Positions 3,501 through 53,495 of a DNA stretch of 64,000 bases are shown here, one piece after another; the first letter of the stretch is position 1, and every line of letters begins with the position of its first letter. The notes under the pieces were generated by a model, which searched no databases, had not been told where the DNA came from, and worked only from the letters and a program-made list of their open reading frames with translations. The DNA lies in the NCBI GenBank assembly GCA_947172415.1, contig OX359190.1, positions 1,736,001 to 1,800,000 on the forward strand, read 5' to 3'. A program made the position numbers and the translations under genes. Source of the stretch: Chondrosia reniformis. Lineage: Eukaryota > Porifera > Demospongiae > Chondrillida > Chondrillidae.

Positions 3501-5715
3501 GCCTATCATTCCCTGACCCCTCCCATCTTCCCTAACCCCGCCTATCATTCCCTGACCCCGCCTATCATTCCCTAACCCCACCTATCATTCCCTAACCCCG
3601 CCTATCATTCCCTGACCCCGCCTATCATTCCCTGACCCCGCCTATCATTCCCTGACCCCGCCTATCATTCCCTGACCCCGTCTATCATTCCCTAACCCCT
3701 CCCATCTTCCCTAACCCCACCTATCATTCCCTGACCCCGCCTATCATTCCCTAACCCCGCCTATCATTCCCTGACCCCGCCTATCATTCCCTGACCCCGC
3801 CTATCATTCCCTGACCCCGCCTATCATTCCCTAACCCCGCCTATCATTCCCTGACCCCGCCTATCATTCCCTAACCCCGCCTATCATTCCCTGACCCCGC
3901 CTATCATTCCCTAACCCCACCTATCATTCCCTAACCCCGCCTATCATTCCCTAACCCCACCTATCATTCCCTAACCCCGCCTATCATTCCCTAACCCCAC
4001 CTATCATTCCCTAATCCCGCCTATCATTCCCTGACCCCTCCCATCTTCCCTAACTACATACATATATACAAATACGTATGTATAAAAACTACTGCTAGAT
4101 AAGGCAGTTAGACTATAGAACATACTTATCCATAGAACATACTTTTCTAAAGATTGTGATTTCTCCTCCTTCTTGCCCTTGCCGATGGGGAAGGGCAGAG
4201 AGGAGCCCTGACTCAGTACCGTTGTAACAGGTCTGTATGTAAAGGTGGTCCCGGTGGAGCTACTGCTACTGCCGGACTTCTTCTCCCTGTGGGGGGACTG
4301 GAGGACCACAGGATTCTGAGATACGTCATGCTCAGATGATCCTTCATTGAACAATGGTAAAGAGAGGACATCACTACAGAGCCAAACAGAAACACAAACG
4401 CATTAATTGTAAATATAGACTATCACAGGACATCAAACATGTACAGCAAATGCCCATAATTGCATAGCCTTGGGAGCCGGTCTGAGGGAAGTGTGCATTT
4501 AAATTTATTTTTTGCATAAAATCTGAGAAATTTATGCAAATTTATGGACCTTGCATTTAAGCGTTAATTAAATGGAGTCCACTGTATACATTAACAAGTA
4601 AATAAAAAACATTTACAAAAATGATGTTAGAAGTAGGAATGGCAGTGTTCACTAAGATATCTGCAAAAAGTATCGAAACAAGACAGTGCTTATATGATAA
4701 GGCTAATCATATAGAAGTTGCATGTATACTGAAATTTAAGTAACTTAACCATACACTTCTGTGTTTGGGTGCACTAAGCTGAAGTAGGAATGGTGCACCC
4801 AAACACAGAAGTGTATGGGCATTTAAATTCCTTCTACTGTTGGAAATTTTAGCCCTAACATTCAATGTTAAAGGGTAAAATATTTTGTACGACAAGTCTA
4901 TTAAGTCAATTGCAAATTATTTCTCTTTTATCGTACACTTAATAAGATAATCCAGCAATATAAAATTTTTTATCAGGGTTTCTTTCAGGGCAATCCCCCC
5001 CCCCCTTTGAAAATGACAAAAGTTATATACTATATATGTGCCAGAATGAGCATTGGTGCACTAAATATGTTTCCCCCCTTCATTTCTATTATCATCATTT
5101 TGCCCCCCTTGCTAAATACTCTGAAAGAAACACTGCCTGTTTATGGTTCTAATGAGTCAAATGTAAACATCACATAAGGTATTCTGGATGATTAAATAAT
5201 TTACACACAATAACCGGGAATTTCTCCTCAACAGGCTCCCAAGTCCACCTATTAGCTCATCGAGCTCCTCAGGAGACATGAGTGGGTGGAGTAAATCCAG
5301 AATCTACTGGTTAGTCACTATATTTGTGGTTTAAAATACAGACATTTCAAATGACCATGTTCTTGTTTTCTCAGATAACTTAAATACATTAATTACATTT
5401 TCTTGTTTCATCATGTAATACGGGAAAGTGAATAAATTACTAAAATATGTGCTATTTTCACAGTGCACTATGTTAGTACTTTAATCTTAAACAGACTTAC
5501 TATTCGCTTATATCTATTGTATGAACGTCTCTAACAAGACTTCCTCGAATCTAAAGAAGCTCTCACCTCATATTGTAGGGCTGGGAGTCTTTATTAAGAC
5601 CTATTTCCAAGTCAGAAAATCCGGATGCTATATCGTAGCCCAGCGCTTGTTCAAGTTCCTTTAAGTCCTCAAGTTTCCATGAGCTATTGGAGTATTCGCC
5701 TAGAATACCGGCCAT
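504..5715 (-). CDS. TFCP2: CP2/LSF-family transcription factor (3' part beyond window)
   Basis: This is a DNA-binding transcription factor of the grainyhead/CP2 superfamily, LSF/TFCP2 branch, expected to act in the nucleus. Exons (minus strand): 5715-5564, 4373-4126, 3097-2864, 2430-2324, 1825-1786, 1256-1144, 572-504. Family landmarks appear in order: [11 protein letters not shown] across the first intron (vertebrate MSDVLALPIF), [54 protein letters not shown] and [11 protein letters not shown]. Phases match at all junctions except exon 2 to exon 3. There I used donor 4125 with acceptor AG 3099-3098; donor 4142 or acceptor 3084 are alternatives, so about 14 residues are uncertain. The start at 5715 (MAGILGEY) was chosen because TFCP2 proteins begin MA a similar distance before MSDV; an in-frame ATG at 5826 would add 37 residues. 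The C-terminal SAM-like and oligomerisation regions lie left of base 1. Introns are packed with minisatellites. Confidence 0.93.
624..796. mobile_element. MITE family M1, copy 1
   Basis: Long terminal inverted repeats (TACCGTAGTTCGGGAAATTT at the left, its complement with one or two changes at the right) surround a short AT-rich centre. No coding capacity. A second copy sits at 23047-23360 in an NCAPG2 intron, which shows that it is dispersed. Superfamily not recognised. Confidence 0.8.
800..1015 (-). mobile_element. R1 hammerhead element, CP2 intron copy
   Basis: A near full-length member of the R1 dispersed family in minus orientation, recognised by TCTTCATCCAAAGCTCTCT-type sequence, the stretch around CACTGGGTCAGACAGCTG and the end near CTTGGCTC. 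It lies in the intron between CP2 exons 6 and 7. Its ribozyme motif is listed separately. Confidence 0.85.
915..960 (-). ncRNA. Hammerhead ribozyme motif (R1 copy)
   Basis: Read on the minus strand: stem I 5' side GGATCA, core CTGATGA, stem II GGG/CCC around a TGGAATT loop, GAAAC, palindromic helix III ACAGCTGT, cleavage triplet GTC, stem I 3' side TGACCC. All conserved core bases are present. Stem I has one mismatch (A opposite C). Confidence 0.78.
1377..1775. repeat. 24-bp minisatellite filling CP2 intron 5
   Basis: About 16 copies of a 24-bp unit (CCATATTCCAACCTCACTCC plus ACAT) with CATATT, CCCATT and CACATT variants. It starts within about 10 bp of the exon 5 donor at 1785 and occupies most of the intron. 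Because 24 is a multiple of 3, both strands show long artefactual open frames. Confidence 0.95.
1963..2319. repeat. 19-20 bp minisatellite filling CP2 intron 4
   Basis: About 18 copies of GGTGGGCTGGTACACACAA (19 bp, or 20 bp with an extra A), with GGGCTGG and GGGTTGG variants. The array ends directly beside the exon 4 donor at 2323. Confidence 0.95.
2434..2746. repeat. 19/22-bp minisatellite in CP2 intron 3 that reiterates the splice acceptor
   Basis: Two unit types alternate: GAGATGGATAAGGGGAGAG (19 bp) and a 22-bp version with GATCTGTGGGGGAGAG. The 22-bp version equals the exon 4 acceptor and the first exon bases (minus strand CTCCCCCACAG then ATCCATCT), so the array looks seeded on the real 3' splice site at 2431. 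Confidence 0.93.
3436..4056. repeat. 20-bp minisatellite in CP2 intron 2
   Basis: About 30 copies of CCTATCATTCCCTAACCCCG and its CTGACCCCG variant, with scattered CCCATCTTCCCTAACCCC units at both ends. The strand asymmetry is strong: the plus strand is pyrimidine-rich. Confidence 0.95.
4623..4830. mobile_element. Dispersed repeat R6, copy 1
   Basis: It shares about 200 bp with 37563-37770 (opposite orientation) and a diverged copy at 32690-32890. Its end has an internal inverted repeat, CACTTCTGTGTTTGGGTGCA against GTGCACCCAAACACAGAAGTG. Non-coding; class unknown. Confidence 0.75.
4975..5145. mobile_element. MITE family M3, CP2 intron copy
   Basis: Inverted ends CAGGGTTTCTTTCAG and CTGAAAGAAACACTG flank a C-rich run and a segment resembling ATGAGCATTGGTGCACTAAA. 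Related copies are at 25625-25815, 40970-41160, 50210-50315 and, degraded, 24270-24400. Confidence 0.75.
5216..5305. mobile_element. Dispersed repeat R5, fragment
   Basis: It contains CTCCTCAGGAGACATGAGTG, which is shared with longer R5 copies at 17935, 19540, 20090 and 38030. No coding capacity. Confidence 0.65.
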
Positions 5716-5827: not shown

Positions 5828-8800
5828 ATGGCCGATATGAAACAAAGTGAATCATTCTATTCTTCTAGAAAGAAGAGAAAGACAAAACTTGTAAGATCTA
5901 ATAGGTTGTTAATTAAATCTATTTACCGATACATTATCTGCCGCACATAGTGACACGAGGGATACGTGCACAATATCAGACAGTCGTACGATGATTGTCG
6001 CTAAGGCAAAGGTTGAAATGGGTTTAGATTAGGCACAGTTTCTAATTGTTAAATAGTGTCCGAGTTATGCTTGAATATTAGCAGCATACAAGGCAGGTCA
6101 ATGTAGTGATGGCATTAAGTTAGTTAAGACATTTAACACTTAAAAATGGCTGATTTACTTTTTAACATCTCAGCCAGGAGATATCAGAATGTTATGTCGT
6201 ATTGGCTGTTTTGGTTTTTCATTTTTAAGATAAATAAGACACAGTTTGAAGGAATCCTTTTTTTATTAATCCTTGTATGCAATGGTTTGTGTCTCCAGTC
6301 TCCAGCAGCCAGCAGTATCAGGTCGGAAAGAGGTGTGATATACATCGGCCATATTCCTCATGGTTTCTATGAGAAGGAGATGAAAGGCTACTTTTCGCAA
6401 TTTGGTACAGTCACTCATGTCAGACTAGCCCGAAGCAGAAAGGTTAGTCTTCCACGTCATGCTGCACTTCCAGAAGAAAGTATTTTAATTATCATATACT
6501 GGGTTTGAATTCATTCATTCATTCATTCATTCATTTAACCAGGAAAGCCCCATCAGCTCAATAAGGCTGGTCTACCTGGGGGTCCTTACATACAACATAT
6601 AAACACATATACACATACAGTAAATCAGTAATTAAATTGGTCAGTAATCAGTTTGTTATCAGTTCAGTGGGTTTGTTATCAGGGGGCGGTTGTCACGGAA
6701 AATTTGCTGCCATGGCCTGGGCTTGAACTTGGGACATCCCATAATCACTGGATCTTGAATCTTGAGCCTTAGTTCTAGACCGCCAGCACCCCCATATGTT
6801 TCAATTACATTTCCAAGAGGTCCGAGAGATCTAGGTAGATTTATATTTTCTAGTGCAATTTAATGGAAAATGTAAGCCAGCATAAAGATTGTCTTTAATT
6901 TGTATATACACATTCATGTACAAGTGTATTAATCACTTTAAGTTATCTCAGCAAATACAATAAGTTAATGGAATAAGGATTTCTTCTAACTGCATTGAGC
7001 TTATCTTTAAGATGGTACATCTTTCGACTCTTTGAGCATCTAAAAACGCAGTTTGTCTTGGTAAATCTTCTGATCAGATGTTTCAATCCTGAGGGTGTTC
7101 TTCAGCGACTGACATGATACAATTTATTAGGAATCTCTTATTACTGTATTGTCATTATAATAATTTAGTAATGGATTAACGGAGTGCAGTAATATGGTTT
7201 CTGTAATATATCTCAGAACATGCCGAGGTCATCTATTTTATGTGGTACTTTGCCACACTTTTATAATTTCATAGGAACTTGAATTCCTTATCTTCTCTTT
7301 TGTAGACTGGTGGTTCTAAAGGATATGCTTTCGTGGAATTTGAAGACAAAGAAGTTGCCAAAATTGCTGCTGAGACAATGAATAATTATTTAATGTTTGA
7401 CAAGTTACTGAAATGTATGAGTGTTCTCCTTAAAATCTTGCCACCTCTCTAATGTGACCACCTCTCTAATGTGACCACCTCTCTAATGTGACCACCTCTC
7501 TAATGTGACCACCTCTCTAATGTGACCACCTCTCTAATATGACCACCTCTCTAATGTGACCACCTCTCTAATATGACCACCTCTCTAATGTGACCACCTC
7601 TCTAGTGTGACCACCTCTCTAATGTGACCACCTCTCTAATATGACCACCTCTCTAATGTGACCACCTCTCTAATGTGACCACCTCTCTAGTGTGACCACC
7701 TCTCTAATGTGACCACCTCTCTAGTGTGACCACCTCTCTAATGTGACCACCTCTCTAATGTGACCACCTCTCTAATGTGACCACCTCTCTAGTGTGACCA
7801 CCTCTCTAGTGTGACCACCTCTCTAATGTGACCACCTCTCTAGTGTGACCACCTCTCTAATGTGACCACCTCTCTAGTGTGACCACCTCTCTAATGTGAC
7901 CACCTCTCTAATGTGACCACCTCTCTAGTGTGACCACCTCTCTAGTGTGACCACCTCTCTAGTGTGACCACCTCTCTAGTGTGACCACCTCTCTAGTGTG
8001 ACCACCTCTCTAGTGTGACCACCTCTCTAGTGTGACCACCTCTCTAGTGTGACCACCTCTCTAGTGTGACCACCTCTCTAGTGTGACCACCTCTCTAGTG
8101 TGACCACCTCTCTAGTGTGACCACCTCTCTAGTGTGACCACCTCTCTAGTGTGACCACCTCTCTAGTGTGACCACCTCTCTAGTGTGACCACCTCTCTAG
8201 TGTGACCACCTCTCTAGTGTGACCACCTCTCTAGTGTGACCACCTCTCTAGTGTGACCACCTCTCTAGTGTGACCACCTCTCTAGTGTGACCACCTCTCT
8301 AGTGTGACCACCTCTCTAGTGTGACCACCTCTCTAGTGTGACCACCTCTCTAGTGTGACCACCTCTCTAGTGTGACCACCTCTCTAATGTGACCACCTCT
8401 CTAGTGTGACCACCTCTCTAGTGTGACCACCTCTCTAATGTGACCACCTCTCTAATGTGACCACCTCTCTAGTGTGACCACCTCTCTAATATGACCACCT
8501 CTCTAGTGTGACCACCTCTCTAGTGTGACCACCTCTCTAATATGACCACCTCTCTAGTGTGACCACCTCTCTAGTGTGACCACCTCTCTAATGTGACCAC
8601 CTCTCTAATGTGACCACCTCTCTAGTGTGACCACCTCTCTAATATGACCACCTCTCTAATGTGACCACCTCTCTAATGTGACCACCTCTCTAATGTGACC
8701 ACCTCTCTAGTGTGACCACCTCTCTAATGTGACCACCTCTCTAGTGTGACCACCTCTCTAATATGACCACCTCTCTAATGTGACCACCTCTCTAATGTGA

Positions 8801-11800
8801 CCACCTCTCTAATGTGATCACCTCTCTAATGTGACCACCTCTCTAATGTGACCACCTCTCTAATGTGACCACCTCTCTAATGTGACCACCTCTCTAATAT
8901 GACCACCTCTCTAATATGACCACCTCTCTAATGTGACCACCTCTCTAATGTGACCACCTCTCTAATATGACCACCTCTCTAATATGACCACCTCTCTAGT
9001 GTGACCACCTCTCTAATGTGACCACCTCTCTAATATGACCACCTCTCTAGTGTGACCACCTCTCTAGTGTGACCACCTCTCTAATATGACCACCTCTCTA
9101 ATATGACCACCTCTCTAGTGTGACCACCTCTCTAATGTGACCACCTCTCTAATATGACCACCTCTCTAGTGTGACCACCTCTCTAGTGTGACCACCTCTC
9201 TAGTGTGACCACCTCTCTAATATGACCACCTCTCTAGTGTGACCACCTCTCTAGTGTGACCACCTCTCTAGTGTGACCACCTCTCTAGTGTGACCACCTC
9301 TCTAATATGACCACCTCTCTAGTGTGACCACCTCTCTAGTGTGACCACCTCTCTAGTGTGACCACCTCTCTAGTGTGACCACCTCTCTAGTGTGACCACC
9401 TCTCTAGTGTGACCACCTCTCTAGTGTGACCACCTCTCTAGTGTGACCACCTCTCTAGTGTGACCACCTCTCTAGTGTGACCACCTCTCTAGTGTGACCA
9501 CCTCTCTAGTGTGACCACCTCTCTAGTGTGACCACCTCTCTAGTGTGACCACCTCTCTAGTGTGACCACCTCTCTAGTGTGACCACCTCTCTAGTGTGAC
9601 CACCTCTCTAGTGTGACCACCTCTCTAGTGTGACCACCTCTCTAGTGTGACCACCTCTCTAGTGTGACCACCTCTCTAGTGTGACCACCTCTCTAGTGTG
9701 ACCACCTCTCTAGTGTGACCACCTCTCTAGTGTGACCACCTCTCTAGTGTGACCACCTCTCTAGTGTGACCACCTCTCTAGTGTGACCACCTCTCTAGTG
9801 TGACCACCTCTCTAGTGTGACCACCTCTCTAGTGTGACCACCTCTCTAGTGTGACCACCTCTCTAGTGTGACCACCTCTCTAGTGTGACCACCTCTCTAG
9901 TGTGACCACCTCTCTAGTGTGACCACCTCTCTAGTGTGACCACCTCTCTAGTGTGACCACCTCTCTAGTGTGACCACCTCTCTAGTGTGACCACCTCTCT
10001 AGTGTGACCACCTCTCTAGTGTGACCACCTCTCTAGTGTGACCACCTCTCTAGTGTGACCACCTCTCTAGTGTGACCACCTCTCTAATGTGACCACCTCT
10101 CTAGTGTGACCACCTCTCTAATATGACCACCTCTCTAGTGTGACCACCTCTCTAGTGTGACCACCTCTCTAATATGACCACCTCTCTAGTGTGACCACCT
10201 CTCTAGTGTGACCACCTCTCTAATGTGACCACCTCTCTAATGTGACCACCTCTCTAGTGTGACCACCTCTCTAATATGACCACCTCTCTAATGTGACCAC
10301 CTCTCTAATGTGACCACCTCTCTAATGTGACCACCTCTCTAGTGTGACCACCTCTCTAATGTGACCACCTCTCTAGTGTGACCACCTCTCTAATATGACC
10401 ACCTCTCTAATGTGACCACCTCTCTAATGTGACCACCTCTCTAATGTGACCACCTCTCTAATGTGACCACCTCTCTAATGTGACCACCTCTCTAATGTGA
10501 CCACCTCTCTAATGTGACCACCTCTCTAATGTGACCACCTCTCTAATATGACCACCTCTCTAATGTGACCACCTCTCTAATGTGACCACCTCTCTAATGT
10601 GACCACCTCTCTAATGTGACCACCTCTCTAGTGTGACCACCTCTCTAATGTGACCACCTCTCTAATATGACCACCTCTCTAGTGTGACCACCTCTCTAGT
10701 GTGACCACCTCTCTAATATGACCACCTCTCTAGTGTGACCACCTCTCTAATGTGACCACCTCTCTAATATGACCACCTCTCTAGTGTGACCACCTCTCTA
10801 GTGTGACCACCTCTCTAGTGTGACCACCTCTCTAATATGACCACCTCTCTAGTGTGACCACCTCTCTAGTGTGACCACCTCTCTAGTGTGACCACCTCTC
10901 TAGTGTGACCACCTCTCTAATATGACCACCTCTCTAGTGTGACCACCTCTCTAGTGTGACCACCTCTCTAGTGTGACCACCTCTCTAGTGTGACCACCTC
11001 TCTAGTGTGACCACCTCTCTAGTGTGACCACCTCTCTAGTGTGACCACCTCTCTAGTGTGACCACCTCTCTAGTGTGACCACCTCTCTAGTGTGACCACC
11101 TCTCTAGTGTGACCACCTCTCTAGTGTGACCACCTCTCTAATATGACCACCTCTCTAGTGTGACCACCTCTCTAGTGTGACCACCTCTCTAATATGACCA
11201 CCTCTCTAGTGTGACCACCTCTCTAGTGTGACCACCTCTCTAATGTGATCATCTCTCTAGTGTGATCATCTCTCTAGTGTGATCACCTCTCTAGTGTGAC
11301 CACCTCCGATCTCTAATTTGACCACGCTGCACATTTCTTTAATAGGTCAGTTTATTCCGGCAGAGAAGTGTCATCCAAAGTTATTCTTCAGAAGAAGACC
11401 AGTTATAACAGACTTTAGTAAAAGAAGAGAAGCAATGAGAATTTCGTTTAATAAAGTATGTAATAGATAAAGTACGTATGTAAACACACAACTTGTTGTC
11501 CTATAATGACGTGACACATTGTTATTGTATTGTTGCATGTACACACATCATAAACAACTTATTTACATAATATTCCTCCGTCCCGAGGCTCTAAAATTAA
11601 GAGGAGCCCATTGTATTAGAGGTTATACCTCAGAGGTAAGTAGCTGTCTTTGTAAATTCCCTTTTTTAGAATTAGATTTAATGTGCTCACGCACCGCCAC
11701 ATTTATTGGTAAAGTTAGATAGTGGCAGTGTATATGTGGCACATATGACTGGAGGACTGTATTACTTTTAACTAAAACTTTATGTTGAATAATTCATATG

Positions 11801-12659: not shown

Positions 12660-12905
12660 GTACACATACTAGATTTAGCATAGAGAGCCAAGGATTCACA
12701 GAAGATCAAGATTAAGAAAAAGACAGACTCCCAGGATCACTGATGAAGGGTGGAATTCCCAGAAACGGCTGTCTGACCCAGTTGGAGAAGAAGATGAAAG
12801 AAGGGAAAGGAAGGAAGAAAAGACTCCTGTATCTTCATCCAAAGCTCTCTTCAGGTTTAGTTCCCCTAGGCATATAGCATGTAGGAATCTTAGATTTTTC
12901 ATGTA
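12660..12905 (+). mobile_element. R1 hammerhead element, full-length type
   Basis: It starts near CTAGATTTAGCATAGAGAGC, passes through the hammerhead motif and ends near TTAGATTTTTCATGTA. Opposite in orientation to the next R1 copy 120 bp downstream. Non-coding. Confidence 0.85.
12734..12779 (+). ncRNA. Hammerhead ribozyme motif (R1 copy)
   Basis: GGATCA, CTGATGA, GGG/CCC stem II, GAAAC, helix III ACGGCTGT (one G-U pair), GTC cleavage triplet, then TGACCC. All core bases are intact. Confidence 0.78.
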
Positions 12906-13023
12906 CAGGGACTCTACAGATCGGTAGATACACGACCAAGGGCAAAATGTGGTGTCCCTGAAGTTACATTTGTACATGTTAATATGTAACAGTAACATGT
13001 ATAAAATTCACCTCCCCACAACA

Positions 13024-13155
13024 CATGAAAAATCTAAGATGCCATTTTCCTACATGCTATGCCTATTCTGTAAAAGAGCCTATAGGGGAACTAAACCTGA
13101 AGAGAGCTGTGGATGAGGATACAGGAGTCCTTTTCCCTTCTTCTCCACTGGGTCA
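13024..13155 (-). mobile_element. R1 copy starting exactly at the cleavage site
   Basis: Read on the minus strand the copy begins TGACCCAGTGGAGAAG at 13155, the base predicted to follow hammerhead cleavage, preceded by unrelated sequence. It runs to the usual R1 end (AGATTTTTCATG). Confidence 0.8.
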
Positions 13156-16400: not shown

Positions 16401-19400
16401 GACTACAAGTAAAACATTGTGGTTATGAGAATAAAGATAAGGCTTAAGGTGTACAGACTACAAGTAAAACATTGTGGTTATGAGAATAAAGATAAGGCTT
16501 AAGGTGTACAGACTACAAGTAAAACATTGTGGTTATGAGAATAAAGATAAGGCTTAAGGTGTACAGACTAGTATACCGCATTACTAAGGTGTCAAATTCA
16601 AGCAAATCAAAAGATTGCAGAAGAGGTCAAAACTCACAATCTTGCATTCTTTAGACACACAATTCAATTCCCGTATACAGTATTATCATATGTGTACATA
16701 CATACATACGTATGCATATACGTACCCTAGCTATATCTAAAGCAATGGTGACATTTTGAGCAGAATCATTTTGTTTCTGTTTTGTTGTTCTCTTTTTTCC
16801 AGCCTTGCCCTTCTTCTCACTTTCTGAAGATTGAGCCGACGACACCTTCCCTAAAGCACTGCCCAACACTCTGTCACTCCAAACTACATGATCTTCAAAC
16901 GCCTCACAAAATAATTGAGTATGCTACGTAGACACAAAAATGGACGAGTCAATTTGATAAGAATTTGGAAGGCAATCAGCTAGAGACTAAAAATAAACAA
17001 ACAAGTACGTAGCATTATGAAACAACGCTACGGCAAGCTCAACAATTAACTGCCATACGTATTTATAACATAGCAATGAACCTCTATTCTATCAATACAT
17101 CATATACGCAATATGTATGTAGTTGTTGCACAACCTTTTAAGAGGTTCATCTTTCAAACATTTTGAGCATCTACGTAGATGCAGTTGGTTATTATATTGC
17201 AAATGTTAGACATTTTGACCCCAAGGGTCTTCTTCAGTGACTGAAGTTTGAAGGTTTGAAAATTCAAAAGATGAACCTAAGTTTGATGCAATTACATGTA
17301 GAAGAAATCCTTATTCCATTATATATAATTTGTATTATTTGCAAATTCTTAATACAGATGATAGGGATTTCTTCTAACTTTACCAAACTTATCTTTGAGA
17401 GGGTTCATCTTTAGTCTTTTGAGTGTCTAGAGATGCAGTTTGTTTTTCTTGAGAATCAGACTATCAATCATCAATCACTGAAGAAGACCTCCAGGGTTGA
17501 ACCATCTGATTATTAAGAAACAAACTCTGTCTCTAGACACTCAAAAGACAAAAGGTGAACCTTCTTAAAAATACTTAAGTTCTTAAATGTTTGTAAGTAT
17601 GAATAGAAGCGGCCAGTATCTATCATCACATTGCAGGTGTACATGACTCCATACGTACGTATACTGTACCTCTGTAGCTTGTAATAATGTTATTCTCCAG
17701 ATCAGTTCAAAGGAGGTAACGAGAAAATGTCTCTCTTCCTCGCTGCAGGGAGAAGGGCCTAGAACTTTGTGCTCTAACTGAATAGTGCTCTCTTTGAGGA
17801 TATCCTTTAGATACCAAAACTTGCTCAATTGAACAATCTCCCTCAAACACTTGCTATTAGACTACAAAATACGTATGATGAAAATGAAACAATATAATAA
17901 TAATAATTATAGATTGAGAAATAGGAGACTTTAAGATCTAGAACTGATCTTAAAGCTACGATGTTTCATCATATGACTCTGGATGATGAAATATCTAGAT
18001 TTTTCCATATTAGTGGTCAGCCACACTTTTGACTGTACCACTTATCTGCTGATAAGGAAACCACAAGCTTTTTTGCTTTTGGGAGTACGTACTTATTAGC
18101 AGACTAGCCACTCAAACTTCCATCGTATGCCATACTGATGATTCCTAATAAGGATGAAACAGCTGTCTATGGCTTGACCATCTTTTTGAGTGGCTAGGGG
18201 GAGACTCTGGTTCCCATTAAGTGAACTTCGGTTCCGCCCATTAGCTCATTGTGCTCCTCAGGAGACATGAGTGGGCAGGGGTAATACCCAGAGTTCAATG
18301 ATGATGATATAGATTTATGCTTCGTACAGAGCTACGTACGCGCGTATACGCACATACGTACAAACTGAATATGTTTGCATGTGAACATTAAAAACAGTCA
18401 AATTCATACAGGTACAGGTACTTCAGGTATATAATCATGTTAGGGGTATAATATGCATGTACGTACATAAGTACGTATCTACGTATGTATCTATGAATTG
18501 GTTAAGATTTGAGCATCAGTAACACTCGTTATTAATCAACGAATTAAATTAAGGACATTTCAACCCGAATGTCTTCTATAGCAGTAAATGAGGAGGAAGG
18601 CATACAATAAGTATAAATAGAGGGAGGTGACAGGTGATTCTTTGATTAATAATAAGTGTTACTGATGCTCAAATCTTAACCAATTCATTATGAACGTACA
18701 AGTATCCCTTATCTACGTATGTACGTACGTACATATACTGCAAGTAATATAGGTACATATACAGTAAATGAAAAGGGGAGTTTATTGCACTTGAGCCTGT
18801 GCTAGGCTATTGTTGCAAACAATAAACAACTAGCCAAGTAGACGATTGTCACTTGGTTGGTTGGTGTAATTATCCAGTGTTGTTTATTATTTGCATATAC
18901 AGTAAATGTACACATCAAATAACTTACAATTAGAAAATCCAGTAGTTTAAGAGCAACAGTAGGATGTAACATGTGGTGGTAGCTACTATTTGTTGCCACT
19001 TTTTCATCCTTTGTGGTAGCCATTTTCTTCTTTCTTCCTCTTTTTGTAACTCTTCCTTTCCCCTTCTTAGAATGAATAACGCCATCTTCTACAAGAAGAA
19101 CAAAGAACAAGTGAAAACTCCTCAGGACCATCTCATTAACTGAGGAGGCCATTAGTCTACAGATATGAAAAATCTAATACACCATTTTCCTACATGCTAT
19201 GCCTACACTGTAAAAAAAGCCTATAGGGGAACTAAGCCTGGAGAGAGCTTTGGATGGAGATACAAGAGTCTTTTCTTTCTTTTTCCTTCTTTCATCTTCT
19301 TCTCCACTGGGTCAGACAGCCGTTTCTGGGAACTAAGCCTCCACCCTTCATCAGTGATCCTGGGAGTCTTTGTCTTTTTCTTTATCTTGATCTTCTGTGA

Positions 19401-22400
19401 ATCCTTGGCTCTCTATGCTAAATCTAGGGGCCTTATATACACTATTTTGGCGCCAAATACGTATGTACACAAAACATATACGTATGTATCTACATGTAAA
19501 CAGTCGGTCACTGTATAAAACATGAATTATGTAGGGCACTCCAAGATCTGAAAGCTTTGATGTCATCATCATTCAACTCTGGATTTTACCCCCACCATCT
19601 CTTTAATTGGCTAAGGGTCTCAAGAGACTCTGGTTCCCATCAAGCGAACTTCAGTTTTACCCTTTGCTCATTGTGCTCCTCAGGAGACATGAGTGGGCAG
19701 GGGTAATATCCAGAGTTTGACAATGACGTGAAATCATGTATTGTTACATGTTTCATAGTCCAACAGCTGTAATCAGCAAGCGTTTGAGGGAGATTGTTTA
19801 ATTGAGCAAGTTTTGTTATCTAAAGAAGATGCACCTTTGACTTGTTCATCATTTATTGGCGCTGTCTCTCTAGCAGTGTGATCATTTTTTGAAAAACCAC
19901 TCTCCAACCATGTTGCTATCATCTTCAGTACTACGTCTGACTGTTTCCACATCACCATGGCAACCAAATAGGACCCATACTTATGAATGTCATCTCCTGG
20001 CTGTAAGCTCTCAAGAATGGCAATGAATCCACCACTAACAGGGAACCAAAATTAAATACGTACATTATGTACGTATGTATATGAATGTATTGATATCATC
20101 ATCATTGAACTCTGGATAACAGGACCCACACCTATGAAAGCTGTCTATAGCTCGGCCATCTTTTTGAGTGGCTAGGGGGAGACTCTGGTTCCCATCAAGC
20201 GAACTTTGCTCATTGTGCTCCTCAGGAGACATGAGTGGGCAGGGTAATATATCCAGAGTTTAATAATGATGATATCAATGCTTTAAGATCAGTTTTAGAT
20301 CTTAAAGTTCCCTATTTTTCGTACATACGTACCTTATTCTAGAAACAGCTTTATAAGGAAGATATGAAGCCAAAGTGATGGTTGCTAAGCGACAGGGTTC
20401 TTCAGGAAAGCTATTGAAGAGAGTGGGGACACTCGAAGTGAACTCTGAAATCAGTTTGCTTTTCACCTTTTTACTGGAAGGCTAGAGAAGTAAACATATC
20501 ATACGTATGCACATACGTATACATATGTATACACTACATGATGTAAACATATTATGTACATAGGAAAAATTTTCAGGCGGGGCAAACCAGAAATTTTTAT
20601 AGTGGGCGTGGTCAGTGGGTGTGGCTAGCCCTCCCCCACCCTGGTTCTTACACCAGTGAAATAGGGATTGCTGTTTGACAATCAAAACCATTTACATGTA
20701 TTGATTATTAATAATTTCCTAAATAATTGAAAAATTTCAAGTGAAAATTGGCTAAAGCTTGGGGGACAAAACCATTTACAGGGGGGGGAGCGAAATGCCC
20801 ACCCTCAAACCCCCTAAAAAACTGGTATACACTACATGAATATTCTAACACACCATTCCTCTTAAATGTTACATACATCTACGTACATAATTTAGAATAA
20901 AGACTTATAGGAAACTAAATCTAGTGAAAGTTTTGGATGAGGATACAAGAGATTTCTCCTTCTACTCTTCTTCTTCTCCACTGGACCAGACAGCTGTTTC
21001 AGGAAATTCCATCCTTCATCAGTGTCCCTGGGAATCTTCGTCTTCTTCTTGATCTTTTGTGAGTCCTTGGCTCTCTATGGTAAATCTAGGTGTCTTATAG
21101 ACAAAATTTTGGTGCCCATAGTTAAATACATTTCAAGCTTCTAGCCAGCATACATATGTAGACAAACATTTTGAATTTACTACATATAATAGCAGGACTT
21201 TATTTACTATATACATATGTATAGGACTGTATGTATCTGGTGCTTGTAATTTAATGATATTCATTCACCATCTTTAAAAACCACATCAATGAAGATCTAC
21301 TCTGTGTGTACCTTTTCCAATTCTTCAATCTTTCCTTCCCACAGGATGACTATAACCTCAATCAAACCAGCTAGGACTACTGTGGAAATTTCTTCTTCTT
21401 CTTCTTGTTCTTCTTCTCTTTCTTTCTCTTGTTTATCCTCCTTCTTAGCAGATATTCTCAAAAGGTAGCTATTAATTGACAACATAAACCTACCTACAGG
21501 GAGTCACAAGTGCATAAGTACTTCACTGCCAGTTTGCCATTTACCCCATGCATTACAGCTATCTTCTATGACTAATACATAAGTATGTATGTATGTACGG
21601 ACATATGTATACTACTGAAGGGTTAACTGAGCTATTAACTATTAGTTAAAATACAGAGATAGCACATACGTACAAGGATTCACAAAATAAAAATAAAAAG
21701 ATTTCCGGGGTCACTGATGAAGGATGGAATTCCCAGAAACAGCTGTCTGGCCCAGTGGAGCAAAAGAAGAAAGAGAAGACTCCTGTATCCTCATCCAAAG
21801 CTCTTACGAGGTTTAGTTCCCTATAGTCTTTTTACAGAATAGGCACAGCATGTAGGAAAATGATTACGTATGTACGTATATATTCATGTACTGCAGTTGT
21901 AATACACAGTATAATACGTACATAATATACATACGTATGTGTGTATATGTATACATACCAGCTTCAGCTACTGTTAGCTGTTTTAGAGCCTGTTCATAAA
22001 ACCTTCTTGCAGCTGCTGGGTTAGTTTTGATTAAATCTATGCATCGGTCGACCTACGTACAAAAGGTTGACAGGTACAAACATACGTAAGTACATATAAC
22101 AAATGCATACACATACGTAAACAGGCTCGTACATTAATCCTGGGGAGCAAGGGAGAATGCCCCCCATCTATGCAGCCCTGAATGTTTTAGGGTGTGGCAT
22201 TTGGGAGTGTGACATTTGGGGTGTGACACTTGGGGGTGTGGCATTTAGGAGTGTGACACTTGGGGGTGTGGCATTTGGGAGTGTGACACTTGGGGGTGTG
22301 GCATTTGGGAGTGTGACATTTGGGGTGTGGCACTTGGGGGTGTGGCATTTGGGAGTGTGACACTTGGGGGTGTGGCATTTAGGAGTGTGACACTTGGGGG

Positions 22401-25400: not shown

Positions 25401-28400
25401 TAAATAATTCATATGGCTCCAAGAAACAGGATGAGTACATTAGCATAAAATTCAGGGTAAAAAACTTATTTTAAATTAAGGATTTTATATTTAGGTCTCT
25501 GTTTGGTAGAAAATGGAGGACAAAATCTGCATATAAAAGGCCATAGGACTATAGAAAAGCTATATGAAAATTATATTATATACATATACAGTATATAGTA
25601 TGCATCTTGGGCTAATCAGAATCATCAGGGTTTCTTTCAGGGGGGCAGAGGGGGCAACTTGTCCCCCCCCCCCTTTAAATAATTTGTACCTCCCCTCATG
25701 AATGACAAATTATATATATGATTCATCACTATATATGTATGTACCAGAATGAACATTGATGCACTATGCCCCCCTCCTTTTCTATTATCATCATTTGTCC
25801 TCCCTTTACAGTAATACTTGTCTCATTGGTTCCTTATGTATTCTCCATATTATGATATCAATGCTTTGGTCCACCAGCCAAGATTAGACTTACGTAGGTC
25901 ACTTGACTGGTTTGGGGTAATACTTCCAGTGATTATTTTTTGTTTATCATTCAGTAAAAAATATGAAGGTTGCCCAATCAGTATCCAGAATACTACGTAT
26001 CAGTCAAGTGACCAAAATCTTATCTTGGTCCTGAACCTTATATACGTATGTACGTATCTATGCTTATAGATCATGACATATGCACAATACGCACGTACCT
26101 CTAGATGGACACCAGAGGCTGCCTTCCACGCTCTAAAGTATACCTCTCCGTAAGCCTGTAACTTCACCCTATATACGTACATGTATACGTAGTAGTTATA
26201 CCACACTTGAGTGTGGTGTGGTATAATTAATATATATCACATATGACTTGAATCAATTGTAAAGGTGATGATAAGTAAACACAAGTAGGCCTACTGGTGA
26301 TATAACATTTTTCACTAGTTCAAGTGTGAAATATAAGGTTTATAACACCCCAGATATCACCCGGTTGTCCTGGTAACGTGATATATATAAGGTATATAAG
26401 TAGGTTCTCATTATAAAGAGCATGTCATTATAGAATATGCATGTAGTCAAATATGACATACGCACATGTGTAAAATTAGTATGTACATACGTATACTGTG
26501 TATTTTAAATCTATAGTAAAAAGTATACGACGAAAATGTATAAAGATATATACATATGTACGTATAATATATTTTGCTTTATCTAATAAAATGCCGCAGG
26601 CCCATACACTAATACAGTACTGGAATATACTTCCACAAAAGGCATTACGCAACATTTCTCACAAGTTCTAGAAGTGTGTGTTATGATAACTGCTTATACG
26701 TAGCATCATAATCAAAAAGACCATTACAGGTACTCCTTATTATGAGGCTCATTGCTGCAATAAATGGTCAAGATTGTGCAATTTGATAATTCTATTGCAT
26801 AATTTCTCTATCACCATCAATTTTAGTGCACTTAACATCATTTCACACATTTACCTATGTACGTACGTATGTATACTAGAAGGAACTGACTTCGAAGCTC
26901 GCAAGAGCTGTTCTTTGACTGTGTCATGAATGACTGGAATGAAACTGCACTGCAGGCCAAAGCAGTAACTGAGAAACTTCTTTCCCTTTTAGGAGCAGAA
27001 ACACACACACTTTAAGTCAGATTTTTCAGGTGCACCTACATTTATACACTCAACTGGCAAATCCAACTTTTATATCTCATAAATTTGGCTGATTCTATTT
27101 ACACAATTCAACTTTACATTAGATTAATCTGTAGTATAGCCTTCTTTTATAGTGACTCATGGGTCTCAACTTGGCCTTGTGCTTTTGTCACTTTAATAAA
27201 TATGTAAATATTATTATTATTATCTCTTTGATATGTAATTGAGTTTGATTTCAGTACATTAGTATAGTGTATGTACGTGCATATGTACGTATATACATAT
27301 ACTGTACTAATATACCATATACGTACGTAGATTTCTCTACAATACTGCTGTCAAGCCAGGCTTCCTTATAAGGGTTGGTTCTGTCCCTTGAAGAAAGCTA
27401 AACGTCCAATTTTTAATAACGAATAACATATGTACGTACGTACGTAGGTGGCCGCCTCAATATTTTACTTACGTACGTACGTATATTGTATCCCCCCAAT
27501 CCCCCCAGTTATACGTATTTTCAAACAGAAACCGTGCAAACCACTACATATGTACGTACGTACATGTATTTTCAAGTTTAATAGAATAAGGATTTCTTCT
27601 AACAACGTCGAACTCATCTTTGGAAAGGATCATCTTTCAATTTTTAGAGCATTTGAGTCGCTAAAGAAGACCCTCAGGGTTGAAACGTCTGAAGATCAAG
27701 AAGAGACAACAAAACTGCGTCTTTAGATGCTCTAAAAGTTGAAAGATGATCCTTTCAAAAGATTTAATGTTCCAAAATTGGAGTGCTTTAATAAAACTCA
27801 CTTCTTCTGTTGAGAGAAATAAAGGATGGACGAAACAGAGGAGAATAAACTCCTTTATAGAAATAGCACTAGAATCCTCAAAGTCTAAAAGAAGCAGACA
27901 CTGCTTGACACTATACAGTCTCTTTACATCCGTAAGCTGGAGGATTAGAAACAGTGAACATAATACAGATATTTGCCTGTTAAATTATACGGCATAGACA
28001 TCAATCAATCTTATTTTAGGTGGTAGGGCCTATTAGTCACTACTCTACAAGGAGCCCACCATAATATACATATACAATAAAATTGAGAATTTAATGTGTA
28101 TTAAATGATAAGCTCATTAACAGAAAAAATTATGAATACGTACGTTACATACATAAATAATGTTTGATGGATTTATTATTATTATAGATATAATACATAC
28201 ATACGTACATATATAAGATGAAAGAAGGGAAAAGAAGAAAGAAAAGACTCCTGTATCTTCATCCAAAGCTCTCTTCAGGTTTAGTTCTGCTATAGGCTCT
28301 TTTACAGAATAGGCATAGCATGTAGGAAAATGGTATCTTAGATTTTTTATGTAAGAAACAGAGACAGAAATTACTGTAAACAGGCAATGAACTTGTTCAA

Positions 28401-30982: not shown

Positions 30983-31765
30983 TCAGTTTATATGACTTTT
31001 ACAAGCTAGCACACAATTGCCAAACTGAACATCATTTCTTATGGCAACACTTTCTGTAAACACTTCATGTTCCTTCAAAACAAAACCAGCAGCTTGAAAG
31101 GCACTGCTTATATCATCTCTACTCAAATTAAACAGCTTAACTTTCTCTTCTAAAGTCGGCAAAAGTTTATAAAAATTCCCTTCTCCGCAAATTATAGCGA
31201 GAATAAACCCATTTTCTTTCAATAAGGGAGATATTCGTTTCAGTCTCATTGTCAAGTTGTCGCCGATATCGTGATCGATAGACAGACAATAAATAGCCAC
31301 TACCATTTGAAATTTCTCTTCTGGTACATATGCACTGTCAATAACGCCGTCCTCCAAGTAATTCCCATGAATTACATGAGCAAGCTTTCCTCTAAGCACC
31401 TCCTGTTGCCTTACAACATCTGCTGGATTCATCCCCATGAGATCGCCGTACACGAAGCTGAAGTAGGGCGACCAGTCAAACATGTCTGAGTGCTTTTCTT
31501 TCCATTCAGTTACCTTTTCTCTCAGTCCTGAATCATACTCTGAAAATACAATTTTGTTAAAATATGGAGCAGCAACAATGGAGTTTAGTAACGAAGGACC
31601 TCCTCCAATCTCCAACAGGCTAGCCTTTGATATATCCCACTCTTTGCTATACTTTTGGTACAGATCGAATAGTAAGCGCATCTTATTGATTTTATGGTTG
31701 TTTATTTCTCCATTTTGAAGTCCGTAGCGTTCAGCTAGGAATGCTAAAGCCAACTGCCTATTCAT
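30983..31765 (-). CDS. NNMT/PNMT/TEMT-family methyltransferase, copy A
   Basis: A single-exon gene of 260 residues encoding a class I SAM-dependent small-molecule methyltransferase of the nicotinamide / phenylethanolamine / thioether N- or S-methyltransferase family, expected in the cytosol. The SAM-binding motif I is LLEIGGGPSLLN near residue 51; FDWSPYFSFVYGDL and the late GFILAIICGEG match the family order. The start at 31765 (MNRQ) is shared with copy B, and similarity between the copies stops there; upstream in-frame codons to 31825 are unlikely to be translated. The acceptor substrate cannot be read from sequence. It differs from copy B at about two dozen residues, concentrated at both ends, with a long identical stretch in the middle. 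Confidence 0.88.
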   Translation of the reverse strand: MNRQLALAFLAERYGLQNGEINNHKINKMRLLFDLYQKYSKEWDISKASLLEIGGGPSLLNSIVAAPYFNKIVFSEYDSGLREKVTEWKEKHSDMFDWSPYFSFVYGDLMGMNPADVVRQQEVLRGKLAHVIHGNYLEDGVIDSAYVPEEKFQMVVAIYCLSIDHDIGDNLTMRLKRISPLLKENGFILAIICGEGNFYKLLPTLEEKVKLFNLSRDDISSAFQAAGFVLKEHEVFTESVAIRNDVQFGNCVLACKSHIN

Positions 31766-32889
31766 GACTAAAATGACGACACCCTTCGAGAATATGCAGA
31801 TTATACCGTAAAACAGTGCTGCCAAAGTTTCGGATTTTGTCCTAATTAGGTAAACGCATCGGAAATATATACGAGGCGCGGCGCTTATGGCTTAGAAGCA
31901 TGTCGGGCGAATAAAAAGTGACTTAAAATCAAGTCATAAACTAGGCAAATGATAATATCATCGTGGGGGCGAACCTGAGCGATTTATTATAAATTTATAG
32001 GCGACTGGCTGTGATCATAAGTAGACACGCTACAAAAGCAACAAAGGAGAAGCCTGCATGAGGTGGCGATGGTTAAAATAAATGCATGAAAAACTTACAT
32101 CTGTAATGTGGGTAATGTCAGCACCAAATTTATAATATCAGAGAGTACGGTAGTACTCTCTAAGTAGGGATGGCCCGAAAAAAAAGGATGCCGTATTTAA
32201 TGTATTACGGGTTAACACCTTATAAGTAGGCAGCGAATGCGTTTTTACCTCTTTTAAACTCGTAATGTGTCTTTTTTGTACGATTTCAATTGAGGGAAGC
32301 TGTTTTCAAGAGCGCATAAAGGCTCTAAGTTTGTAAAACGGTTTCAGGCCTACTTCCGGTTTTCCTCATTTTCTTCCTTTTATTTTACGCTAGTGCATAA
32401 ACGCACTTGTAGATAAATACATCTTAGGGGCATATCGTCTAAACGTTTTAGCAACAAGGGAATAGGCACCTTTCTGTCTTCAAACGATTTGTGCAAAGAC
32501 GGTTTTCTGTGGCGTGTAAGAAGATTGGAACCTTTTTGTCGCCATTTTCTAATTAGGAGTTTCTTGGTCATATCCTCTTTATCTTCGACTATGACGTTAT
32601 TTCGAGTTATTGCCAAAAAAAACTTACAAACTAGTTTTATAAGTATAAAAAAGAAGGAATACAAGTAAATAAAAAATGAAATGAGAAATAGGGATGGCAG
32701 TCCCTACAACAGTACCTATCACATCTAGAAAAAGCAATGAAACAAGACAATGATCAGATAATAAGGCTAACAATACACAAATGGAATATATACTGCCTCA
32801 AATTTCAGTGACTAACAATACACATCACTTCCATGTTTGTGCGCACTCTATCCCTATATCAGCCATCATGGTGCACCCATGGCAATAGT
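31766..32889. other. Unique spacer between the duplication copies
   Basis: It holds a diverged R6 copy (about 32690-32890) and otherwise unremarkable AT-rich DNA. The only ORF of note is listed separately. Confidence 0.55.
32380..32664 (-). CDS. Hypothetical small basic protein (doubtful)
   Basis: A 94-codon open frame: hydrophobic start (YSFFFILIKLVCKFFLAITR) then a Lys/Arg-rich part (MTKKLLIRKWRQKG). I recognise no family. The basic part from the internal ATG is not repeat-derived, which is the only reason it is listed. It could be an isolated exon, a short gene or chance. Confidence 0.2.
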   Translation of the reverse strand: MYSFFFILIKLVCKFFLAITRNNVIVEDKEDMTKKLLIRKWRQKGSNLLTRHRKPSLHKSFEDRKVPIPLLLKRLDDMPLRCIYLQVRLCTSVK

Positions 32890-35511: not shown

Positions 35512-36294
35512 TCAGTTTATGTGACTTTTACAAGCTAGCACACAATGGTCAAACTGAACATCATTTTTTAACGTCTTACTTTCTGTAAACACTTCATGCT
35601 CCTTCAAAACAAAACCAGCAGCTTGAAAGGCACTCCTTATATCATCTTTACTCAAATTGAACAGTTTATGTTTCTCTTCTAAAGTCGGCAAAAGTTTATA
35701 AAAATTCCCTTCTCCGCAAATTATAGCGAGAATAAACCCATTTTTTTTCAATAAGGGAGATATTCGTTTCAGTCTCATTGTCAAGTTGTCGCCGATATCG
35801 TGATCGATAGACAGAGAATAAATAGCCGCTACCATTTGAAATTTCTCTTCTGGTACATACGCACTGTCAATAACACCGTCCTCCAAGTAATTCCCATAAA
35901 TTACATGAGCAAGTTTTCCTCTCAGCACCTCCTGTTGCCTTACAACATCTGCTGGATTCATCCCCATGAGATCGCCGTACACGAAGCTGAAGTAGGGCGA
36001 CCAGTCAAACATGTCTGAGTGCTTTTCTTTCCATTCAGTTACCTTTTCCCTCATTCCTGAATCATACTCTGAAAATACAATTTTACTAAAATATGGAGCA
36101 GCAACAATGGAGTTTAGCAATGTAGGACCTCCTCCAATCTCCAACAGGCTAGCCTTTGATATATCCCACTCTTTGCTATACTTTTGGTACAGATCGAATA
36201 GTAAGCGCATCCTGCTGATTTTATGGTTGCTTATTTCTCCATTTTGAAGTCTGTAGCGTTCTTCCAGGTATGCTGAAACCAACTGCCTATTCAT
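35512..36294 (-). CDS. NNMT/PNMT/TEMT-family methyltransferase, copy B
   Basis: A paralogue of the 30983-31765 gene: same length (260 residues), same single-exon structure and all motifs (LLEIGGGPTLLN, FDWSPYFSFVYGDL, GFILAIICGEG) intact. The start at 36294 matches copy A; the 51 further in-frame codons up to 36447 are not conserved. Many changes are conservative (K/R, S/T, L/M), as expected if both proteins are still under selection. Upstream sequence differs from copy A, so the two genes probably have different promoters. Confidence 0.88.
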   Translation of the reverse strand: MNRQLVSAYLEERYRLQNGEISNHKISRMRLLFDLYQKYSKEWDISKASLLEIGGGPTLLNSIVAAPYFSKIVFSEYDSGMREKVTEWKEKHSDMFDWSPYFSFVYGDLMGMNPADVVRQQEVLRGKLAHVIYGNYLEDGVIDSAYVPEEKFQMVAAIYSLSIDHDIGDNLTMRLKRISPLLKKNGFILAIICGEGNFYKLLPTLEEKHKLFNLSKDDIRSAFQAAGFVLKEHEVFTESKTLKNDVQFDHCVLACKSHIN

Positions 36295-36821
36295 GCCACA
36301 TGCATCTATTTTTTCGATTACTCGTACAAAAGAAGGGAAAAAAAAAATTGTCCTGCTGCTGTTGAGCACTACTTCACGAGGCAGCATAGATAAAGGAGTC
36401 GTATATCTATGGAGGCAGTGACTGCGCATGCTCGATACAGCCCTCAATCAAGGTATAGCGGATGCGACCGGTTCAGTTCATTAACCCCCTTTAATCAATA
36501 AGGCACATAAAAGTTATGGTCACGTGTTAAGATAACGTCAGCGTTAAAAATTAGATGTCTAATGCATGTCAACCCTAATCTCCAAAAAGTTACAGCCCTC
36601 AATATACATTAAATTCAGGAATACAGAGTTAATGTATGGTGAGAGATATATAGGGCAAATTTTAAATATCATCAAAATTTCAAAATCTCATTGGACATAC
36701 TCTATAGGTCTCTGTGAATGCTGGCACAAAGTCACAGCTTCATATCTTTCAGTTTGATAGAGTTACAGCCCTCAATGTACATTAAATTCTGGTATACAAA
36801 GTTAATGTATGAACAAGGAAA

Positions 36822-53117: not shown

Positions 53118-53495
53118 GTCGAAACCGCTATCCGGAAAGAGGAGATTAGGATGAGGGAATTACAATAATGCCACCATTTTACTGTTTACATGCCATCAAA
53201 ATTTGTACGGGTTCTCAAAAATTATATCTCGGATTGGGTTTATATGGTAATCTTCCGTATACTTTTGAAATTAGCAATCCATTCAGGGTTCAGTTCAAGA
53301 TTATTCATCGATCTCGCACTTCAGTGAAACATGTCGGATTGTGCCCGAGGAGAGTAGGAGAACGCGTATAGTACAAACGAATTGTTGTTGCAAAGGATAT
53401 CAAGTAAGACAGTATAGTGTCGTGTTTATCTGTTCGTGTTCATCTAGGTATGGCTTCCTTTGTCACTTTTAATTTGCAGCTGTTTGCAGTTCACT
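53118..53495. promoter_or_regulatory. Divergent FBXL20 / GLI promoter interval
   Basis: 378 bp separate the two start codons, and both 5' UTRs and promoters must fit here unless there are upstream UTR exons. An acceptor-like AATTTGCAG at 53472-53480 suggests a short 5'-UTR intron for GLI. No TATA box stands out. Confidence 0.55.

Follow-up and report, generated by a model that had tools for sequence, protein, structure and literature searches.

The dispersed repeat R1 of the sponge Chondrosia reniformis is very likely part of the leader of an autonomous Penelope-like retrotransposon

The window analyzed here is a stretch of 64,000 nucleotides (C2:1736001-1800000) from the genome of Chondrosia reniformis, whose 117,379,552 bases in 15 contigs were used for the genome-wide searches. 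It contains a 227-copy array of a 17-bp unit at 7441-11306 (96% matches), two similar neighboring genes of the NNMT/PNMT/TEMT methyltransferase family on the minus strand (30983-31888 and 35512-36444), two stretches of SRCR domains on the plus strand at 38771-39562 (E = 1.8e-56), a plus-strand C2H2 zinc-finger frame at 53448-54542, and, at 59598-60923 on the plus strand, what appears by eye to be a zinc-finger continuation, for which no Pfam match was found. Besides these, the window holds copies of a frequent dispersed repeat, R1, with a length of up to about 240 nt.

The preliminary description placed a hammerhead motif in seven R1 copies, and inspection of the sequence showed that all seven bear it. 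The motif occurs at 915-960 on the minus strand (R1 copy about 789-1007), and on the plus strand at 12734-12779 (R1 copy 12669-12905), 45940-45985 (R1 copy 45891-46129), and 51263-51308 (R1 copy 51218-51458). The minus-strand motif at 19309-19360 has a 6-nt insert in loop II, and its R1 copy (19165-19457) extends upstream beyond a TATA box and contains an exact match of the promoter 30-mer at C2:1755410-1755439. Two motifs lie in older R1 copies: that at 20983-21028 on the minus strand (R1 copy 20899-21128) has an A-U pair at the base of stem II and one broken stem I pair, and that at 21708-21753 on the plus strand (R1 copy about 21661-21870) forms all six stem I pairs, one G-U included, and only two of four stem II pairs. 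An eighth motif, overlooked at first, was found on the minus strand at 48480-48525 (R1 copy 48339-48574) and carries a G12 to A change. Six further R1 pieces in the window are truncated at the 5' end and lack the whole motif. These are located at 13023-13146 (minus), 28215-28353 (plus; its likeness to the copy at 51 kb and the flank of that copy continues to 28452), 42867-42931 (minus; a short fragment), 43701-43842 (plus), 54607-54767 (minus; starting about at stem III of the motif), and 57465-57581 (minus). The piece at 43701 starts at, or 1 nt past, the predicted cleavage point, an ambiguous case as its flank ends in ACAT.

In the order of its parts (stem I, core, stem II, GAAA, stem III, NUH, and stem I), the motif matches a minimal type I hammerhead whose stem III is very short, as had been proposed. 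Some of the sequence details given with that proposal need correction. The 5' arm of stem I, given as GGGTCA or GGATCA, is GGGACA in the 20983 copy (with TGGTCC as the 3' arm) and AGATCA in the 51263 copy; the palindrome ACAGCTGT is replaced by ACGGCTGT in the 12734 and 19309 copies. With a descriptor composed after R1 had been seen (CTGANGA, GAAAC...GT[ACT], at least five of six stem I pairs, and at least three of the first four stem II pairs), we found six matches in the window and none in 40 dinucleotide shuffles of it, nor any in 20,000 shuffles of one R1 copy; the combination of core and arms is beyond a chance match. The 21708 copy fails the descriptor because of its two unpaired stem II positions.

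The pairing is weaker than the layout. Pairs were counted in 84 young, 38 old, and seven window copies with an ungapped motif (129 in total), leaving out seven loci as overlaps or duplicates, one of which, L060, actually held a separate copy. The base of stem II (10.1-11.1) is A.A in 82 of 84 young, 36 of 38 old, and six of seven window copies, i.e., a standard pair is absent there from 118 of the 122 young and old copies, and the fourth stem I pair is A.C in 82 of 84 young copies versus G-C in 31 of 38 old ones. The AGGA/TCCT pairing noted earlier in the 20983 copy is real, while its reading as a hint of selection on structure was dropped: the change is nearly private, with only one of 38 older-type copies scored having another standard pair (A-T) at that position, and differences between subfamilies are not depleted in the motif, although the latter test is weak. 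Of the young copies spanning the core (CTGATGA/GAAAC/GTC), 30 of 38 have it intact, as do 10 of 20 and 13 of 19 copies in two older sets; it is also present in full elements with open frames (see below).

Folding predictions give a similarly mixed picture. The minimum-energy fold of the young type does not contain the hammerhead arms, and those of the older type and of the 21708 copy contain stems I and II plus an extra CUG/CAG helix through the core, as does the fold of a canonical hammerhead from the same genome (L001). Compared with shuffled sequences, three window R1 stretches of 84-86 nt had z-scores of +1.13, +0.12, and +0.51, the 46-nt motifs of 20983 and 45940 had -1.77 and +1.08, respectively, and canonical L001 had -3.16. 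When the hammerhead fold was forced, energies (in kcal/mol) were -11.8 for the older type, -10.6 for L001, -8.5 for the young type, -5.9 for 21708, and -4.7 for 20983. The covariance-model check suggested in the preliminary description went against it, with no match of Rfam RF00163 in the window either at the gathering cut-off or at E up to 10. Likewise, no Rfam hammerhead was found in an 821-base stretch that includes the 20983 and 21708 copies (E up to 10), or in L057 and 13 other loci; elsewhere in the genome, 51 of 65 reported places scored above the cut-off. We did not take this miss as final, because hammerheads of Penelope-like elements are described, in the portion of the source drawn on here, as usually minimal, without helix III and tertiary contacts (PMC6155905). 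The R1 motif is thus best described as a putative ribozyme, a hammerhead by its layout and a weak one by its predicted pairing.

A genome search with one R1 copy (40 places scored from 2292 candidates) revealed that some copies extend further upstream, through a TATATAA box, and that a GIY-YIG stretch lies upstream of R1 in locus L034. Searching the genome with this protein stretch gave 136 matches (150 candidates scored), eight of which lie in 997-aa open frames. In three of four regions around such matches (L057, L058, and L059), the frame is preceded and followed by a pseudo-LTR (pLTR), the pLTRs being aligned over 625-666 columns; the fourth region (L060) has a 922-aa frame and one pLTR. 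GIY-YIG is at residues 126-159 of the 997-aa frame (E = 2.2e-4, 21.9 bits versus a Pfam cut-off of 22.6) and precedes a reverse transcriptase (RT) in the same ORF, which was matched by RVT_1 when the RT stretch was searched alone (E = 2.9e-5, 24.3 bits versus a cut-off of 29.6) and not reported when the whole protein was searched against Pfam. Both scores are slightly under the curated cut-offs; in addition, we recognized by eye what we take to be the letters of the RT motifs. A PDB sequence search returned no chain at E 0.01; with the limit raised to E 10, it listed three chains, all unrelated. Upstream of the first pLTR in L046, L050 (the same locus as L058), and L051 is the end of a 215-aa frame, which looks RT-like by eye in L058. 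Among 13 further GIY-YIG loci, a descriptor search for hammerheads found one only in L124, which has a closely similar leader.

In full elements, R1 makes up the last ~240 nt of the pLTR and of the 5' leader, and its 3' end sits inside the leader, 50-55 nt upstream of the start of the open frame. An RT and a GIY-YIG endonuclease in one ORF, pLTRs in partial tandem, and short target duplications (described below) are hallmarks of Penelope-like elements. We therefore regard it as very likely that an autonomous Penelope-like retrotransposon carries R1 as the 3' portion of its pLTR, which doubles as the 5' leader, and that an RT start inside the leader yields the R1 insertions. The earlier tie to Penelope-like elements was thus correct, and the label "non-autonomous" is unsupported, since the genome has intact 997-aa frames of the element to which R1 belongs. 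Across the genome, 30-mers with up to two mismatches were counted 549 times for the promoter, 1477 for the leader start, 2718 for the hammerhead, and 2166 for the 3' end, with zero counts for the reversed-pattern control of each.

To locate the insertion ends, we used 60 copies from the first 62 places in the list of 3'-end pattern matches (two in L057 were omitted), all on one chromosome and all exact 3'-end matches. Their common 3' end is partly a matter of choice because the sample was picked by that match; the 3' junction itself varies by only a few bases. With the G of GCCAAGG numbered +1, the 5' ends of 25 of these young copies fall within an 8-nt window (-1 to +6), 13 lie beyond -40, two at -39 to -3, and 20 at +11 to +204. 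The clustering is highly significant against a uniform distribution (p = 1.8e-26 for the 47 copies with an end not beyond -40). The cluster is about 30 nt downstream of the TATATAA box, which starts at -30, and 44-51 nt upstream of the hammerhead motif. Three copies (L084, L085, and L086) have identical flanks and are 1.1-1.2 kb apart, representing a local duplication that includes an R1 insertion; as they share one flank, 23 of the 25 clustered starts are separate events. Target duplications have a mean length of 3.48 nt (71 usable of 88 loci) versus 2.39 (sd 0.16) in 500 shuffles, none of which reached 3.48, and of 59 distinct 5' flanks, 30 have CAT among their final 9 nt, compared with 20.1% of control windows (p = 1.5e-7). 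Directly beside the R1 copies in L075, L110, and L114, small parts of R1 ends are duplicated, perhaps by template jumps.

The same genome has a second family, of canonical type I hammerheads, to which the 51 places over the Rfam cut-off belong, and a search for which gave 100 matches from 40 scored candidates. It consists of 355-bp units in direct and head-to-head inverted repeats (six regions; e.g., L041:3164-3886 and 3886-4140), and 14 of its loci (L039-L044 and L001-L008) revealed no Penelope-like ORF belonging to it; of these loci, only L042 and L043 have pLTR tails, which are of the R1 family. Copies of both hammerhead families adjoin or lie in minisatellite arrays of a 13-bp unit of the TACATACAACTAG type (L038, L041, L042, L043, and the 3' flanks of L057 and L058), possibly because this unit offers a CAT target.

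The motif occupies about +50 to +95 of the leader, and cleavage is predicted after +89. We looked for a peak of 5' ends at this site and found that all 60 copies start more than 3 nt away from +90. As only 20 of them are truncated downstream of the start cluster, about 0.6 chance starts are expected in this 7-nt window, so that there is no peak, without depletion being demonstrated, and there is room for up to about 5% of insertions starting at the cleavage site. On the other hand, 46 of the 60 copies start upstream of the predicted site, and their template was therefore uncut there. With no insertion end at the cleavage site among these copies, the earlier suggestion that R1 is "ribozyme-dependent" is unsupported.

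No selection on the hammerhead structure was detected at the diagnostic sites of the subfamilies, in what is a weak test. In 41 young full copies, substitutions number 47/1857 in the motif, 45/1950 before it, and 107/3736 after it, a similar load in and around the motif as expected of dead insertions. Diagnostic differences among the three subfamilies number 3/46 in the motif, 4/41 before it, and 10/72 after it (14/113 for both flanks), which does not differ from young-copy polymorphism (p = 0.77), with only 17 diagnostic sites in total. With alignment gaps included, the motif seemed strongly conserved between subfamilies (0 to 3 of 46 columns versus 28-33 of the other compared columns), an effect that vanished when only substitutions were considered; for this reason, the excess of the hammerhead 30-mer over the 3' end (2718 versus 2166) was not read as selection either. 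Three diagnostic changes affect paired positions and, if the older subfamily shows the ancestral state, two of them strengthen pairing (T-G became T-A in stem I, and T-G became C-G in an outer arm proposed here). None of the 15 core positions differs between subfamilies, and the young subfamily has lost one stem I pair held by the older one.

We propose that RNA polymerase II would start about 30 nt downstream of the TATATAA box, and that reverse transcription would begin not at the RNA 3' end but inside the leader, at ...AGATTTTT, on a nicked CAT target site and proceed to the RNA 5' end; both starts are deduced from insertion ends only. If copying runs this way, an RNA of one unit would give the ~240-nt R1, and a read-through tandem RNA would give the full element. 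This is the simplest reading, and it accords with work on an Anolis element, as far as the part of that report used here goes (PMC11167929). Any cleavage by the putative ribozyme is probably slow, or dependent on a dimer or on a protein of the element, and cut RNA would probably be an insertion template only rarely. A more specific version, in which a Penelope-like enzyme copying inside its own leader makes SINE-like 240-nt by-products and the mismatched putative hammerhead is kept as a template selector switched by dimer formation or protein, is speculative, and we consider it unlikely as a whole.

Several other explanations of R1 and its motif were weighed. R1 could be an independent non-autonomous retrozyme or SINE, whose hammerhead RNAs are cut from multimers, circularized, and reinserted by a Penelope-like enzyme. 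Its ~240-nt size and its copy number do resemble those given for animal retrozymes in the sections of PMC7229834 drawn on, leader starts outnumber promoters (1477 versus 549), and the partial duplications of R1 ends in L075, L110, and L114 could be taken the same way. However, R1 is the leader of full elements, where it is joined to an ORF; moreover, circles should yield tandems or ends at the cleavage site, but no whole direct dimer of R1 is among the matches listed, and the observed cluster of 5' ends lies 44-51 nt upstream of the hammerhead, with none of 60 within 3 nt of the site. We rejected this explanation and regard it as highly improbable.

Within the preferred reading of R1 as a Penelope-like leader, the motif itself may be either a working ribozyme or a remnant of one. 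A hammerhead active in the cell, trimming or separating tandem transcripts before insertion, fits the core being intact in 30 of 38 young copies and in full elements with open frames. The forced fold of the older type (-11.8 kcal/mol) is comparable to that of the canonical L001 (-10.6), the young type being at -8.5. In addition, an axolotl hammerhead with U.U at the base of stem II still cuts, 22% in an hour as a monomer and better as a dimer, and an Anolis hammerhead cuts only with protein, according to the excerpted accounts (PMC7229834 and PMC11167929, respectively). Against these stand the A.A at 10.1-11.1 in 118 of 122 copies and the A.C in stem I of 82 of 84 young ones, the lack of hammerhead arms in the young type's minimum-energy fold, window stretches folding no better than shuffles, and the lack of both an Rfam match and insertion ends at the cleavage site, so that such putative activity, as judged from the sequence, is possible but on the doubtful side. 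The other possibility, a relic that was once an active hammerhead and now persists without a function, is close to an even prospect: diagnostic substitutions fall in the motif as they do in the flanks (3/46 versus 14/113, p = 0.77 versus young-copy polymorphism), and the young subfamily lacks a stem I pair present in the older one, whereas the test has 17 sites in all and is weak, two of three changes at paired positions strengthen pairing if the older subfamily shows the ancestral state, and the core shows no subfamily differences at 15 positions.

The preferred reading of R1 as a Penelope-like leader accounts for the frequent dispersed repeat without a new non-autonomous element. Further, such a young family, present in thousands of copies in an animal genome that is small and well assembled, preserves a record of the RNAs that were copied, and this record points to internal RT starts and to templates that reach the 5' end of the transcript and are uncut by the ribozyme.

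Cervera and de la Pena reportedly described, in 2014, Penelope-like elements whose pseudo-LTR holds a minimal type I hammerhead, and the R1 element appears from its sequence to be a previously unlisted member of this already known class; judged by title, none of the few papers listed on sponges or hammerheads together with Penelope is evidently on the R1 family, which is not proof that it is undescribed. A Penelope-like clade with permuted domains is said to have been reported by Craig et al. in 2021; this clade, Naiad, has an N-terminal endonuclease. The R1 element, with GIY-YIG ahead of RT, fits this clade, to which it is likened by domain order only. As portrayed in parts of PMC6155905 and PMC7761336, the hammerhead Penelope-like elements are similar to the R1 element in having RT and GIY-YIG in one ORF, pLTRs, partial tandems, a hammerhead with a very short stem III upstream of the ORF, and a common 3' end near the ORF start. 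In contrast to these elements, whose GIY-YIG follows RT, that of the R1 element precedes it, and R1 has an A.A at the base of stem II and has its 3' end inside the leader, 50-55 nt short of the open frame. What the conserved minimal hammerheads do for Penelope-like elements is described as a mystery in one source (PMC7761336).

Penelope elements of the rotifer Adineta vaga are described, in the portion of the report used, as having pLTRs, partial tandems, tails, a TATA box, and short target duplications (PMC3846280), and the R1 element shares with them the pLTRs with a TATA box, partial tandems, solo pLTRs, and short target duplications. The animal non-LTR retrozymes, as outlined in part of PMC7229834, also have a type I hammerhead and a unit of 170-400 nt, but full copies link R1 to an ORF, a TATA-type promoter lies upstream of R1, and of the direct tandem repeats of 150-450 bp without an ORF that characterize retrozymes, no whole R1 dimer was found among the matches listed. 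The Anolis Poseidon element PAc, as far as the passages of PMC11167929 used here describe it, has an internal RT start near the start of the ORF, and its hammerhead mutants still insert. It resembles the R1 element in the internal RT start, the hammerhead near the ORF start, and the use of uncut RNA as a template. Unlike the R1 element, PAc has a C-terminal GIY-YIG and an RT start inside the ORF, and this start is said to be non-homologous to the cleaved DNA, whereas R1 shows a CAT match to its target (PMC11167929).
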